Assembly: GCF_026625605.1 (NCBI RefSeq)
Contig: NZ_CP113054.1
Location: 2,728,001-2,792,000, forward strand
Direction: 5' to 3'
Length of the DNA stretch: 64,000 nt
Source of the DNA: Luteolibacter sp. SL250
GTDB taxonomy: Bacteria > Verrucomicrobiota > Verrucomicrobiia > Verrucomicrobiales > Akkermansiaceae
Below, in pieces: positions 28,254 to 33,455 of the stretch. The position numbers and the translations under genes are program-made. Under the pieces are notes generated by a model that was not told where the DNA came from, did no database searches, and saw only the letters and a program-made list of their open reading frames with translations. The first letter of the stretch is position 1, and each line of letters opens with the position of its first letter.

Positions 28254-28982
28254 ATGGTGGTGGAGAAACTGGATACCCTGCAGACCGTGGAACTCGCGGA
28301 AGGAATCGAGATCCGCCTGCGCATCGCCGGGCCGCTTGTCAGGGCGGGAGCCTATCTGGTGGATCTGGTGATCCGCAGCGCCATCCTCACGGTCATTTCC
28401 TTGGCCATGGCCATCAGTGGGATTGCCATTGGAGGAAAGGTAGCCATGGGATTGTTCCTCTTGGCCTGGTTTCTTTTGGATTGGTTCTACCCGGTGATTT
28501 TCGAAGCGGGGAAACGTGGAGCCACACCCGGAAAACGTGTCGCGGGGCTTCGCGTGGTGCAGGCCACCGGTTCCCCCATCACGCTCGGGCAGGCGGTGGT
28601 GCGGAATTTCCTCCGCTTCATCGATGGCATGCCGTTCTTCACGTATGGCATCGGCCTGGGGAGCTGTCTGGCATCGCGGCGTTTCCAACGGCTGGGTGAT
28701 CTGGCGGCGGGGACGGTGGTGGTCTACACGAAGACCGCCCCGGAGATCATCATCGCAGCTCCTCCCCCCATGCAATCGGTGCCGATTTCGGTCGGTCTCA
28801 CGGCGGATGAAACCAGGGCGTTGGTTCTTTTCCGGGAACGGGCCGGATTGTGGTCGGAGGGACGGCGCGCGGAGATCGGCGATCATGTCAGCGCGCTCAG
28901 CGGAGCTTCCGGCACCGCCGGGGTCAACCGGCTGATGTCGATGGCCCACTGGGTGCAGGAAAAGCGGGAGGGAGGGACGTGA
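28254..28982 (+). CDS. RDD family membrane protein
   Basis: The 242-residue protein holds an RDD domain: A-G-P-L-V-R-A-G-A-Y-L-V-D-L-V-I-R near the first helix, Y-P-V-I-F-E-A-G-K-R-G-A-T-P-G-K-R after the second, and R-R-F-Q-R-L-G-D-L-A-A-G-T-V-V. The soluble C-terminus is of unknown role. It opens a tight cluster with spoIIM, DUF4129 and DUF4350 genes (1-base gap, then overlaps). This set usually accompanies MoxR and DUF58 genes; both are missing here. Confidence 0.9.
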   Translation: MVVEKLDTLQTVELAEGIEIRLRIAGPLVRAGAYLVDLVIRSAILTVISLAMAISGIAIGGKVAMGLFLLAWFLLDWFYPVIFEAGKRGATPGKRVAGLRVVQATGSPITLGQAVVRNFLRFIDGMPFFTYGIGLGSCLASRRFQRLGDLAAGTVVVYTKTAPEIIIAAPPPMQSVPISVGLTADETRALVLFRERAGLWSEGRRAEIGDHVSALSGASGTAGVNRLMSMAHWVQEKREGGT

Positions 28983-28983
28983 G

Positions 28984-29955
28984 ATGACGGTGGGGGATTT
29001 CGAGTCGAAGAATGCGGAACGATGGCGCGAGTACGAGCGTCTCGTGGAGTCGTTGGAAAAGGGGAAACCGAACGAGCATGCGGACCAACTGCCAAGACGG
29101 TTCCGCGAACTCTGCGTGGATCTTTCCCTGGCGGAGTGCCGGATGTATGGCTCCCGCCTGACCGGGCGGCTCAATGCTCTGGTGATCCGCGGTTATGAAA
29201 TCATCTACCGCACGCGCCGCGGCGGCTGGAGGGCGTTCGCGGAATTCGCCGCGGTTGGGTTCCCCCGGGCGGTGCGCGGGGACTGGAAACTGTTCTGGCT
29301 GTGCAGCATCATGTTCTGGCTGCCGTTCTTTGCCATGATGCTTTCCGCCCACCATGACATCAGTTGGGTGCAGGCCGCACTGGGACCGGAGGGAATGGCC
29401 TCGATGGATGACATGTATGGTGGCCGTGAACAACAGATCGCCCACCTGAGGTCCGAGTATGGATCGAACTTCATGATGTTCTGTTTCTACATCTACAACA
29501 ATGTCGCCATTGATTTCCGGATCTTCGCCGGTGGCATGGCTGCCGGTGTGGGGACGTTGTTCTTCCTTCTCTTCAACGGGGTGCACATCGGGGCGGCGGC
29601 GGGCTACGTGAATGTGGCCGGAAATCCGGAATCCTTCTGGACCTTCGTCGCCGGGCACTCGTCGTTCGAGCTGCTGGGCATGGTGGTGGCGGGCATGGCG
29701 GGCATGCGCCTCGGACTGGCCATCCTCAAGCCGGGGAGGCTGCCCCGCGTGAGGGCGCTTGCGGAGACGACGAAGCACACGCTGCCGCTGATCTATGGTG
29801 CCGCACTCCTGACCACCCTGGCTGCGGTTGTGGAGGGCTTCTGGTCCGCCCAGCCGGTTCCCTCCATGCTGAAGTACGCCGTCGGCATTTTCTTCTGGCT
29901 GCTGCACGCCGCCTACTTTCTTTTCGCGGGGAGGGGCGTGAAGCATGCGCCTTGA
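28984..29955 (+). CDS. SpoIIM-like (stage II sporulation protein M family) membrane protein
   Basis: The 323-residue protein has a cytoplasmic N-terminus with R-W-R-E-Y-E-R-L, then six or so helices. The family block N-N-V-A-I-D-F-R-I-F-A-G-G-M-A-A-G-V-G is followed by F-N-G-V-H-I-G-A-A-A-G-Y and G-H-S-S-F-E-L-L-G. In spore formers SpoIIM works in engulfment; in non-sporulating Gram-negatives the family occurs in MoxR-type clusters of unknown function. It lies between the RDD gene and the DUF4129 gene, overlapping the latter by 11 bases. Confidence 0.9.
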   Translation: MTVGDFESKNAERWREYERLVESLEKGKPNEHADQLPRRFRELCVDLSLAECRMYGSRLTGRLNALVIRGYEIIYRTRRGGWRAFAEFAAVGFPRAVRGDWKLFWLCSIMFWLPFFAMMLSAHHDISWVQAALGPEGMASMDDMYGGREQQIAHLRSEYGSNFMMFCFYIYNNVAIDFRIFAGGMAAGVGTLFFLLFNGVHIGAAAGYVNVAGNPESFWTFVAGHSSFELLGMVVAGMAGMRLGLAILKPGRLPRVRALAETTKHTLPLIYGAALLTTLAAVVEGFWSAQPVPSMLKYAVGIFFWLLHAAYFLFAGRGVKHAP

Positions 29956-31387
29956 GGATGTCACCGCGGAGATCCGTCCCCGGAGTGATTGGGAGGCGGT
30001 GGACCTGGGATTCGCCATGATCCGCAGGGATTTCTGGCGCTGCTTCACCGTCTGGTGGCTGGCGTTGCTGGCACCGGTGCTCATCGCCGGCTGGTTCCTG
30101 CGGGAGATGCCGCTGGTCCTGGCCGCTCTGTTCTGGTGGTGGAAGCCCGTCGGCTCGCGGATGGTGTTGTTCGATCTCAGCCGTCGCCTTTTCGGAGAGA
30201 AGCCGGGTTGGAAAGCGGTTTTCCGGGAGATCCCGCGTGCCTGGATCCGCCGGTTCTTCTACCGCATGATCTTCGCGAGGTTCTCACCCTGGCTGCCGGT
30301 CACGCTGGCAGTGGAGGATCTGGAGGGGCTGCGTGGAAAGCCCTACCGCCAGCGGGCGAAGCAGCTTGCGCGACGCGGGGATGGAGTGGTGATGTGGTTG
30401 TATTTCGCCGCGGATCTCACCGCCGCGTGGCTCGCGCTGAGCGTCTTCGCCATTGTCATCATGATGATGCCGGAGGGTGAAAGCGGCCCGTGGCAGGCGG
30501 CGCTGGAATCCTTTGACCAGAGCAATCCATTCGACATTCCATTGGTCATTTCATGGACCGCCGCCGGTTGTGCGATGCTGGGGATGGCTCTGGTGGACAT
30601 CTTCGTCACGGGAGCCGGCTTCGGCGTCTACGTGAATAACCGGACGTGGCTGGAGGGCTGGGATGTCGAACTGGCATTCAAGCGTCTGGGACAACGCCTC
30701 GGCAAACTCGCTGCCGTGCTGGTGCTCGCGGCGTCTCTCTTTTTCCCGCTGTCCTCTCATGCGCAGGAGACCGGCCCGGATCCGGAGATCATCCGCGAGG
30801 TCAAATCCCATGAGGATTTCAAGGTCCACTCGGAAACCTACAAGGTGCCGGTCTCGAAATCGAAATCCAGTTCATCATCGGGTGGATTTGGCGCCGTTCC
30901 CGCCTACGTGGCGTTGATCTTCGGCTACACGGCTCTTGCCGCGTTGCTCGGCTTTTTGATCTGGGTGATCTGGAACAACCGCCATGCATTCCGGCTGGCG
31001 TACTCAGGGGGAGGTGCATTGAAGGAAGCACCATCCGCACGGATGGTGATGGGCATGGAAGTCACCGCGGAGTCACTGCCGAAGGACATTCCGACGGCGG
31101 CATGGGCGCTATGGACCGCTGGACGGCGGCACGAGGCGCTCGCCTTGCTCTACCGTGGGACGATTTCGAAGGTGATCGATGTCGCAAGGGTGGAGATCCA
31201 GGAGTCGGACACGGAAGGGGACTGCCTCCGTCGGGTGGAGGATGCCGGAAGCTCCGCGCACCCGGACTATTTCAAAGGCCTCACGGGGGCATGGATGCGC
31301 CTGGCGTATGCCGCGCAGGATCCTCCGGAAATGGAGGTCCGTGCCTTGTGTGAAAGCTGGCCGTTCAGGGAAGGGAGGGTTGGATGA
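29945..31387 (+). CDS. DUF4129-type membrane protein
   Basis: The 480-residue protein has several N-terminal helices (about 30-60, 160-180, 200-230), a helix near 253-270 ending S-S-H-A-Q, and a Ser-rich linker. One more helix follows (about 317-340), and then the cytoplasmic DUF4129 region. That region carries P-T-A-A-W-A-L-W-T-A-G-R-R-H-E-A-L-A-L-L-Y-R-G and the S-D-T-E-G-D-C-L-R-R-V motif. The family is predicted to support assembly or processing of envelope proteins with MoxR ATPases. It overlaps both neighbours (11 and 4 bases), so the cluster is one transcript. Confidence 0.85.
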   Translation: MRLEDVTAEIRPRSDWEAVDLGFAMIRRDFWRCFTVWWLALLAPVLIAGWFLREMPLVLAALFWWWKPVGSRMVLFDLSRRLFGEKPGWKAVFREIPRAWIRRFFYRMIFARFSPWLPVTLAVEDLEGLRGKPYRQRAKQLARRGDGVVMWLYFAADLTAAWLALSVFAIVIMMMPEGESGPWQAALESFDQSNPFDIPLVISWTAAGCAMLGMALVDIFVTGAGFGVYVNNRTWLEGWDVELAFKRLGQRLGKLAAVLVLAASLFFPLSSHAQETGPDPEIIREVKSHEDFKVHSETYKVPVSKSKSSSSSGGFGAVPAYVALIFGYTALAALLGFLIWVIWNNRHAFRLAYSGGGALKEAPSARMVMGMEVTAESLPKDIPTAAWALWTAGRRHEALALLYRGTISKVIDVARVEIQESDTEGDCLRRVEDAGSSAHPDYFKGLTGAWMRLAYAAQDPPEMEVRALCESWPFREGRVG

Positions 31388-32490
31388 CCCGTCATCTCCT
31401 CAGGTGCTGCCTGCTGCTCTTCGCCCTCTTGTCCGCAGGTTGCGAGTTCGAGGAAGTGACCCGCGAAACGGGTTACAAGGGGAAGGCACGGCTCAATCCC
31501 TGGCTCGCTGCTGAAAGGTTCGTGGAGCGCAAGGGGCATGAGGTCCGCGCATCCGGAAGCTGGCTGAAGCCGGAGTGGAATCACAGCGTCTACTTCGTTC
31601 CCGTCGGTGTGCTGAACAATGCCGGGGTGGTGTCTCCGATGAAGGAGTGGGTCTCCAACGGCGGACATCTGGTGCTGCTGGTGGAGTACTCGGATTCCGA
31701 GTGGAATGACTGGGGGCACTTCCAGCGCAATGTTCCCGAGCTCCAATCACCGCTGGTCGAATTCCTGAAACAGACCGGGATGACCATCGACCGGGCAGGC
31801 TCGGGCAAACCTGATGGAACAGAGGTCACCTTCGGTGAACAAAAATATAAGGTCGAAACCTCCTCCAGCGCGTCTGTTTCGACACAGTCGGTGAAGGACG
31901 GGAATTTCGCTTCGGTGGAGTACGACTACGGCCGCGTGACCGTCATCCCGGATGCGAGGATCTTCCGCAACCGCAAGATCGGGGATCAGGAGCACGCCGC
32001 GCTGCTTTCCGCCCTCATCGAATCATCTCCGATGGAGGGAACGGTCGTGTTCCTGCGTGGAGCGGGCATCTCGCTCTGGAGGATGCTTGCACGCCATCTC
32101 TGGCCGGTGCTGGTGGGCCTGGGCGTGGCCCTCATCATCTGGCTGTGGAAGAGTTTCACCCGCTTCGGTCCCATGGAATCCGCTGCCACCGCATCCCCGT
32201 TGCGGGGATATGACCATCACCTGGAGGCGTTGGGGGATTACCAATGGAGGCTGGACAGAGGTTCCGCACTGCTGGCTCCCATCCGGGAGCGGATCATCGA
32301 GGGTGGGCAGAAAGCCGCCGCTGCCGCCGGCAGAAAGGATGCGGACTTCTTCCAGTTCCTCGCCGAACGTGCCGGCATTCCCAGGGAACGTGTGAACCGT
32401 GCCCTGACGGAGAACGCTCCGGCGGATGGCAGCGTGATGACCCGGACGACGGCGGATCTGCAGAAGCTGCTCTCGGTGCTGCGGTCGTGA
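31384..32490 (+). CDS. DUF4350-type lipoprotein/membrane protein
   Basis: The 368-residue protein starts with a lipobox-like leader (L-L-S-A-G-C, Cys about 20). A Rossmann-like extracytoplasmic domain follows with E-W-V-S-N-G-G-H-L-V-L-L-V-E and D-Y-G-R-V-T-V-I-P-D-A, then a membrane helix (about 238-256) and a helical tail. This layout matches DUF4350 proteins that end RDD-SpoIIM-DUF4129-DUF4350 clusters. The usual next genes, a MoxR AAA ATPase and a DUF58 protein, do not follow; a broken PEP-CTERM gene does. Confidence 0.85.
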   Translation: MTRHLLRCCLLLFALLSAGCEFEEVTRETGYKGKARLNPWLAAERFVERKGHEVRASGSWLKPEWNHSVYFVPVGVLNNAGVVSPMKEWVSNGGHLVLLVEYSDSEWNDWGHFQRNVPELQSPLVEFLKQTGMTIDRAGSGKPDGTEVTFGEQKYKVETSSSASVSTQSVKDGNFASVEYDYGRVTVIPDARIFRNRKIGDQEHAALLSALIESSPMEGTVVFLRGAGISLWRMLARHLWPVLVGLGVALIIWLWKSFTRFGPMESAATASPLRGYDHHLEALGDYQWRLDRGSALLAPIRERIIEGGQKAAAAAGRKDADFFQFLAERAGIPRERVNRALTENAPADGSVMTRTTADLQKLLSVLRS

Positions 32491-32575
32491 CGATTTGCCG
32501 GAATAGGGCCGGGGGAAATCTTCCAACGATTTACTGGTTGAAAATTTTCCCGGAAGATGATAGCGCGTTTGGAGA

Positions 32576-33455
32576 GTGAAAACCCAGTCCCCCATTTTCG
32601 CAGGGTTCACTGTCATTGGATTCCTCGCATCGGCGGGGATTGCGTCCGCTGTGACAGTGATTGATGACGGATTCGAAACGGCGACCCATCCCACCGGTTT
32701 CCGGACGGTTGCGACGTCTCCGGGCAGTCCCTATTACGGATCGTCCTCACCGGCGGCGTCCATCACTGATGATACGACATTTGGCAGCAAGGCACTCACC
32801 GTCACCGCCGGTGCGAACTACCACCTGATAACCCCTCTGGGAGGAACCGTTTCGCTTGCGAATGTCAATGATACCCTGACGCTGAGCTTCAAGTTCCGGT
32901 TCACAAACTCCCCGACGGCGGATGGAGCGGCGTTCCGGTTCGGTATTTTCAACTCCAACGGCACACCGGTCGTGTCCGATAATTTCGGAACCGGGATTTC
33001 TGACAATGACAGGGGTTATTATGCGGTGGTGGGAGCGACGACAGTTCCTGCGGCGAGTGCGATCCTGTTCAATGAGAATGGAGGCACCAGCCCCATCCTC
33101 GGCGGAGCGGACCGTTCTTCGCTGGCGGCGAGTTCCACTGGTCCCACCGTGGCATCCGGAAATATGGCCGCGCATTCGGTTTCACTGACCCATCACGCGG
33201 ACCAGCCTCACCCAGATGTCGCTCTCCTATGTGTTCGACGGAGGCACCCCCATCACCGCGGTGGACAGCAGCGCGAACATTCGCACCTCCTTCGACCAGA
33301 TTGCCATCTCGAACGGATTCACGACCACCTTTGCCCAATACAACGTTGACGATGTGTTGCTGACGGCAACAAATTTCACCCCCATTCCCGAACCGGCCGC
33401 CGCATTGCTTGGAAGCATGGCGGCGATTGGGATGCTGATCCGCCGACGGAAGTGA
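32576..33455 (+). pseudogene. PEP-CTERM protein gene broken by a one-base insertion
   Basis: The 5' frame (32576 to about 33190, GTG start) encodes a signal peptide (about residues 1-25) and a beta-rich secreted domain with N-D-T-L-T-L-S-F-K-F-R-F, then loses sense after H-S-V-S-L-T. The +1-shifted frame continues I-T-R-T-S-L-T-Q-M-S-L-S-Y-V-F-D-G-G and ends with P-I-P-E-P-A-A, a hydrophobic helix and R-R-R-K. Removing one C from the CCC at 33189-33191 rejoins both into a 292-residue PEP-CTERM protein. It may be a true recent inactivation, a phase-variable run or a sequencing error. Its stop codon abuts the polX stop codon. Confidence 0.8.

Follow-up and report, generated by a model that had tools for sequence, protein, structure and literature searches.

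In the RavA-ViaA system, a MoxR AAA+ ATPase is paired with a vWA-type partner. The same pairing of a MoxR AAA+ ATPase with a vWA-type protein is described for NorQ-NorD (PMC9976466). A conserved gene neighbourhood has been outlined by Makarova et al. (2015, PMC5898192), in which SpoIIM homologs occur with an AAA+ ATPase of COG0714 and with a vWA protein, DUF4350 (arCOG01314) is linked to MoxR and vWA genes, and an archaeal DUF4350 member is likened by profile search to GldG and to a beta-galactosidase domain. In Bacillus subtilis, SpoIIM belongs to the DMP complex of forespore engulfment (PMC5898192). In the literature collection that was searched, no paper treats MoxR, DUF58 and SpoIIM together.

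The six-gene system considered here (RDD, SpoIIM, DUF4129, DUF4350, MoxR and DUF58) resembles the neighbourhood of PMC5898192 in combining a SpoIIM-family protein, a MoxR-type ATPase and a vWA-type partner. It differs from that neighbourhood, as outlined there, by the inclusion of RDD and DUF4129, by a gene order that is kept over several phyla and, in the genome that is the subject of this report, by the detachment of the ATPase/DUF58 half. Compared with both RavA-ViaA and NorQ-NorD, the partner is a membrane-anchored DUF58 protein without the DxSxS motif, and four more membrane proteins are present. The likeness to B. subtilis SpoIIM consists in a common Pfam family, and neither SpoIID nor SpoIIP is among the six conserved genes; sporulation is not known in the host lineage. 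The main reading, that the operon is split in this genome and that the six genes still form one unit, is given a probability of roughly 0.8.

The window is the whole stretch of DNA that was analysed, 64,000 nucleotides (G000:C1:2728001-2792000) from a genome that consists of one 4.92 Mb contig and is 98.9% complete. Its closest relatives among named genomes, in a comparison that may omit records of the genome itself, are Akkermansiaceae and Luteolibacter-like Verrucomicrobiales, and the host probably belongs to these. Four membrane protein genes, referred to as the front block, lie in the window in the expected order on one strand:

28254-28982, plus strand: RDD membrane protein gene, first in the block (Pfam PF06271, E 2.7e-20)
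28984-29955, plus strand: SpoIIM-family membrane protein gene (Pfam PF01944, E 7.4e-28)
29945-31387, plus strand: DUF4129 membrane protein gene (Pfam PF13559, E 4.3e-6, residues 403-472)
31384-32490, plus strand: DUF4350 gene (Pfam PF14258, E 5.8e-9)

All four exceed the Pfam cut-offs (for DUF4129, 27.1 bits against 24.8), and the reading frames are packed, with intergenic distances of +1, -11 and -4 bases. Upstream of the block are adenylosuccinate lyase (purB), an AI-2E transporter and beta-lactamase-fold genes. MoxR and DUF58 do not follow DUF4350: searches of the whole genome placed none of its eight MoxR matches and none of its ten DUF58 matches inside the window. The four genes are members of the six-gene system, and the window locus is not an intact operon. 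The cluster was described in an earlier note as lacking a MoxR ATPase and DUF58, which holds for the locus and fails for the genome, where both are present.

Gene order in relatives confirms that MoxR and DUF58 are the usual companions of these genes. In a genus sample of 37 genomes, the window genome included, SpoIIM is found in 19, operon-type MoxR in 19 and operon-type DUF58 in 20. The gene directly after DUF4350 is moxR in all 18 other congeners that have the cluster, with a broken copy in G036, and moxR also follows at operon spacing in G107 and G164. The possibility that most relatives lack the ATPase at this place is contradicted by the same 18 of 18. Among the best 80 of at least 560 matched loci from named genomes, moxR follows DUF4350 in 65, 13 end too soon, and two are without it despite room; DUF58 comes next in 59 of those 65, is absent in two and has no room in four. 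SpoIIM and DUF4129 are adjacent in all 78 named loci that match both, and an RDD match is present in 69 of the 80 named loci and, in another set of 37 loci from relatives, in 36, some of the others being cut by contig ends. The system is found in phyla that include Verrucomicrobiota, Planctomycetota, Pseudomonadota, Aquificota and Myxococcota. These counts in the genus and in the named loci show the six-gene order to be ancestral and the window arrangement to be derived.

Some loci depart from this order in other ways. A reversed arrangement, MoxR-DUF58-SpoIIM-RDD, is present in some genomes of the same taxonomic order (L088, L090, L091 and L092); neither DUF4129 nor DUF4350 is matched there. 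A Pseudomonas alliivorans locus (L184) reaches its contig end 2.6 kb after DUF4350 with no moxR match, and two other loci, from Competibacteraceae and Parabeggiatoa (L156, L175), likewise have no moxR match; all three are possible splits.

The suggestion that the ATPase is elsewhere is borne out, as the genome-wide search for MoxR and DUF58 identified an orthologous pair about 0.54 Mb from the front block and on the opposite strand:

G000:C1:3304063-3305052, minus strand: moxR (moxR_3304), ortholog of the moxR that follows DUF4350 in relatives
G000:C1:3302749-3304056, minus strand: DUF58 gene (DUF58_3302), 435 aa, membrane-anchored product, ortholog of the operon DUF58 in relatives

Nine of the ten DUF58 matches in the genome are above the cut-off, and five of the eight MoxR genes adjoin a short DUF58 (293-309 residues), the other three being near other kinds. 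In one further MoxR locus of the genome (L019 7156-15191), a 290-aa DUF58 is accompanied by permease-like and BatA-like genes, the names being assigned by eye. Within the genome, moxR_3304 and DUF58_3302 are the best queries for the respective genes after DUF4350 in relatives, with identities to the congener operon proteins of 76-82% for MoxR (71% for one short contig-end piece) and 65-71% for DUF58. In a tree built from 33 of 113 collected MoxR rows, moxR_3304 clusters with the operon MoxRs of the genus, apart from seven paralogs of its own genome; ten of the 30 inner branches are well supported, and the nine-row group with moxR_3304 has support of 100/96. Both remote genes have full-length open reading frames, and the Walker A and Walker B motifs of MoxR are intact. 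Because the pair is retained in the genome, a simple excision, one of the events that the earlier note had raised for 32490-32576, is excluded.

The place of the break can be narrowed to the following interval, which contains a gene that is not part of the system:

32491-33455: interval with the rearrangement junction, where moxR occupies the place after DUF4350 in relatives
32576-33455, plus strand: frameshifted gene, called from its reading frames, which we take to be PEP-CTERM-like; flush against polX

The breakpoint is between the DUF4350 stop (32490) and polX; a break near 32490-32576 had been raised as a possibility, and it falls at or just beyond 32490. The reading frames confirm a broken gene followed by polX on the opposite strand: there is one frameshift near 33190, one frame has its stop at 33347-33349, and the C-terminus, with a PEP motif and a basic tail, is in the other frame and ends at 33453-33455. 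None of the family models matched this gene, and its frameshift is either a sequencing error or the mark of a pseudogene. Beyond it and polX lie an endonuclease/phosphatase-family gene, ybaB and dnaX. In relatives, polX was detected in 17 of 17 searched and accompanies dnaX in seven of 17 loci; none of the stretches examined has it near DUF4350, and in all 16 checked relatives that have the cluster, polX and the cluster are on different contigs or at least 59 kb apart.

These observations bear on whether the 32490-33455 junction might be a misjoin, which would reduce the split to an assembly artefact. The junction does hold a frameshifted gene, and its arrangement is absent from all congener loci examined. 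It lies, however, in a single contig of 4.92 Mb (98.9% complete), the 981 bases across it match nothing else in the genome, and similar splits are present in other genomes. Among the matches listed there is no long repeat common to the remote side, the longest exact match to it being 17 bases inside coding DNA, and exact-match and copy-number searches gave no sign of a repeat or of mobile DNA at the window junction. A misjoin is accordingly very improbable. Scans for promoters and terminators returned none of either at the remote junction; the window junction gave one of each, both in minus-strand orientation, compared with 0.3 and 0.9 in shuffles.

The operon split is thus almost certainly real, derived and specific to the lineage, with its breakpoint between 32490 and polX. 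A chromosomal rearrangement in this lineage very probably moved the back block of MoxR and DUF58 away, and since all parts are still present, the case appears to be one of ordinary genome rearrangement, with no motor missing. The reversed orientation of the remote pair would fit an inversion of about 0.54 Mb. A single inversion should also have exchanged neighbours, and the second adjacency that this predicts was not found in the relative loci: the gene that precedes the remote moxR occurs in four of 17 relatives (five of 18 with the window genome), and in none of 17 loci does a gene of the remote flank lie 3' of polX, with one 41% match on the other side (L216).

The fate of split systems was followed in an order-wide sample of 151 genomes (90% completeness requested), using strict cut-offs that leave out diverged variants of the system occurring among the relative loci. 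SpoIIM is present in 68 genomes, the operon MoxR in 69 and the operon DUF58 in 68, and all three coincide in the same 68; G160 has MoxR alone, with no SpoIIM or DUF58 partner. The association of SpoIIM with DUF58 has a Fisher value of 1e-44, a statistic that ignores shared ancestry. The six-gene locus is contiguous in 53 of the 68. Among the 15 non-contiguous cases, two (G151, G175) are explained by contig breaks and one (G120) is uncertain, so that 12-13 splits remain; 12 of these were accepted as real from the space available on their contigs. Splits between DUF4350 and MoxR occur in the window genome (G000), G043, G047, G050, G066, G070 and G109, and splits between MoxR and DUF58 in G009, G055, G065, G070, G102 and G145; those among the g8 genus genomes may come from a shared event. 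In the genus sample, DUF58 is apart from moxR in G035 and probably also in G010.

Two further ideas about these loci were considered and set aside. Long open frames round moxR in G120 and G145 suggested a DUF4350-MoxR fusion, but separate DUF4350 matches lie upstream and none is recognisable in the extended frame. A split common to another family was suggested by the MFS gene beside the remote pair, since 64% identical copies (L098 13392-14615, L100 4082-5323) lie within a few kb of the detached pair in G043 and G050, but the orientation is different. No such gene was seen near the detached pair in G047, and the likeness is regarded as coincidence because the MoxR tree puts moxR_3304 inside its genus.

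The pattern of co-retention also addresses the idea that the membrane block functions alone, the remote MoxR-DUF58 pair having some other client. In favour of this, the pair lies far off and has diverged somewhat more. When the window genome is compared with eight chosen from the 18 congeners, with identity among those eight as reference, MoxR has 79.1% against 85.5%, DUF4350 50.7% against 58.5%, DUF58 69.1% against 73.9%, DUF4129 58.6% against 61.2%, RDD 70.2% against 72.5% and SpoIIM 74.5% against 75.4%. All six proteins are therefore more diverged in the window genome, most of all MoxR and DUF4350, which lie beside the break, and as far as sequences can tell, there may be a mild relaxation of constraint on them. 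A second point in favour comes from G036 (L068 / L106), a 96% complete genome that seems to keep its front block even though its moxR is broken after about 211-216 residues, inside a contig, and in which no DUF58 of the operon type was found; this genome may have lost its motor half naturally. Against these points, SpoIIM is always accompanied by both MoxR and DUF58 in the 151 genomes even though 12-13 loci are split, and in the genus sample 18 genomes have all three, 16 have none and three are discordant. Besides G036, the discordant genomes are G029, where DUF58 is on a contig whose end falls inside moxR, and G025, a 57% complete genome with DUF58 and no moxR within 990 bases upstream of it. 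The proposal that the membrane part works alone is hence unsupported across the 151 genomes, with G036 of the genus sample as a possible exception, and it is judged unlikely. The six genes probably constitute one functional unit; in the window genome, the ATPase is probably supplied to the membrane block in trans.

The predicted proteins are consistent with a membrane-based assembly. Hydrophobic segments number two in RDD, five each in SpoIIM and DUF4129, two in DUF4350, two at the N-terminus of DUF58 and none in MoxR. The SpoIIM model is all-helical (mean pLDDT 91), with no fold match in the PDB at E<=0.001 and no sequence-profile match at E<=0.1; 18 columns are invariant in an alignment of 55 sequences (the window and 54 of 80 loci). 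DUF4350, aligned for the window together with 56 loci out of 62 that were usable, has an N-terminal hydrophobic segment, an alpha/beta domain, a transmembrane segment near 231-258 and a C-terminal helical tail (model pLDDT 89). Its eight fold matches (E 5e-5 to 7e-4), to GH42 beta-galactosidases and the IFT52 N-terminal domain, are weak, with TM-scores on the query of 0.19-0.31, and agree with the beta-galactosidase likeness given for the archaeal member in PMC5898192.

The earlier note had linked the system to a metal-insertion or envelope-assembly machine; a machine for metal insertion would here be of the NorQ-NorD or chelatase kind. The general layout, MoxR with a vWA-type protein, speaks for this, and MoxR has weak matches to chelatase ATPase models that fall far short of the cut-offs. 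The operon DUF58 of the window genome, however, has DTGRR in place of the vWA DxSxS motif. Among 90 aligned DUF58 rows covering more than 380 query residues (89 from relatives and one from the window genome; some genomes probably occur twice, and the rows are not independent), DxSxS is found in none, DxGRR in 81 and other forms in nine, and Arg replaces the last MIDAS Ser in all 90. Six of eight DUF58 proteins of the window genome have DxSxS, and the two without it are those with hydrophobic segments (the second motif was read by eye). In the NorD mutants described in PMC9976466, changes of other MIDAS residues, T534 and D562, abolish activity and not NorQ binding. The metal-insertion reading is weakened because DUF58 lacks DxSxS; taken with the NorD mutants, this means that the NorQD label should therefore not be carried over, and such a function is improbable here. 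Offered tentatively instead, DUF58 would be a distinct vWA-derived partner, with D-x-G-x-R replacing the first part of the metal site, and MoxR would grip the assembly in a metal-independent way.

A working scheme for the six-gene unit can be put forward. RDD, SpoIIM, DUF4129 and DUF4350 would form an inner-membrane assembly, with the alpha/beta domain of DUF4350 outside and its helical tail inside. The MoxR ring would dock on the membrane-anchored DUF58 and act on the assembly from the cytoplasm, the MoxR-DUF58 motor half being supplied in trans in the window genome. The output would be remodelling or secretion at the cell envelope; a role in ATP-driven remodelling of an envelope complex is plausible, at slightly less than even odds.

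The split in the window genome is a lineage-specific one with all parts kept, an ordinary and mildly useful natural experiment. Co-retention despite split operons gives good grounds for regarding six little-understood genes as one unit. In split genomes, either half, ATPase or membrane, can be deleted or regulated independently of the other and free of polar effects. If the proposed contact of MoxR with its partner is correct, the system would represent a branch of MoxR whose task is to move components of the membrane or envelope, without metal insertion, and the naturally split genomes would be a test bed for metal-independent MoxR contact.
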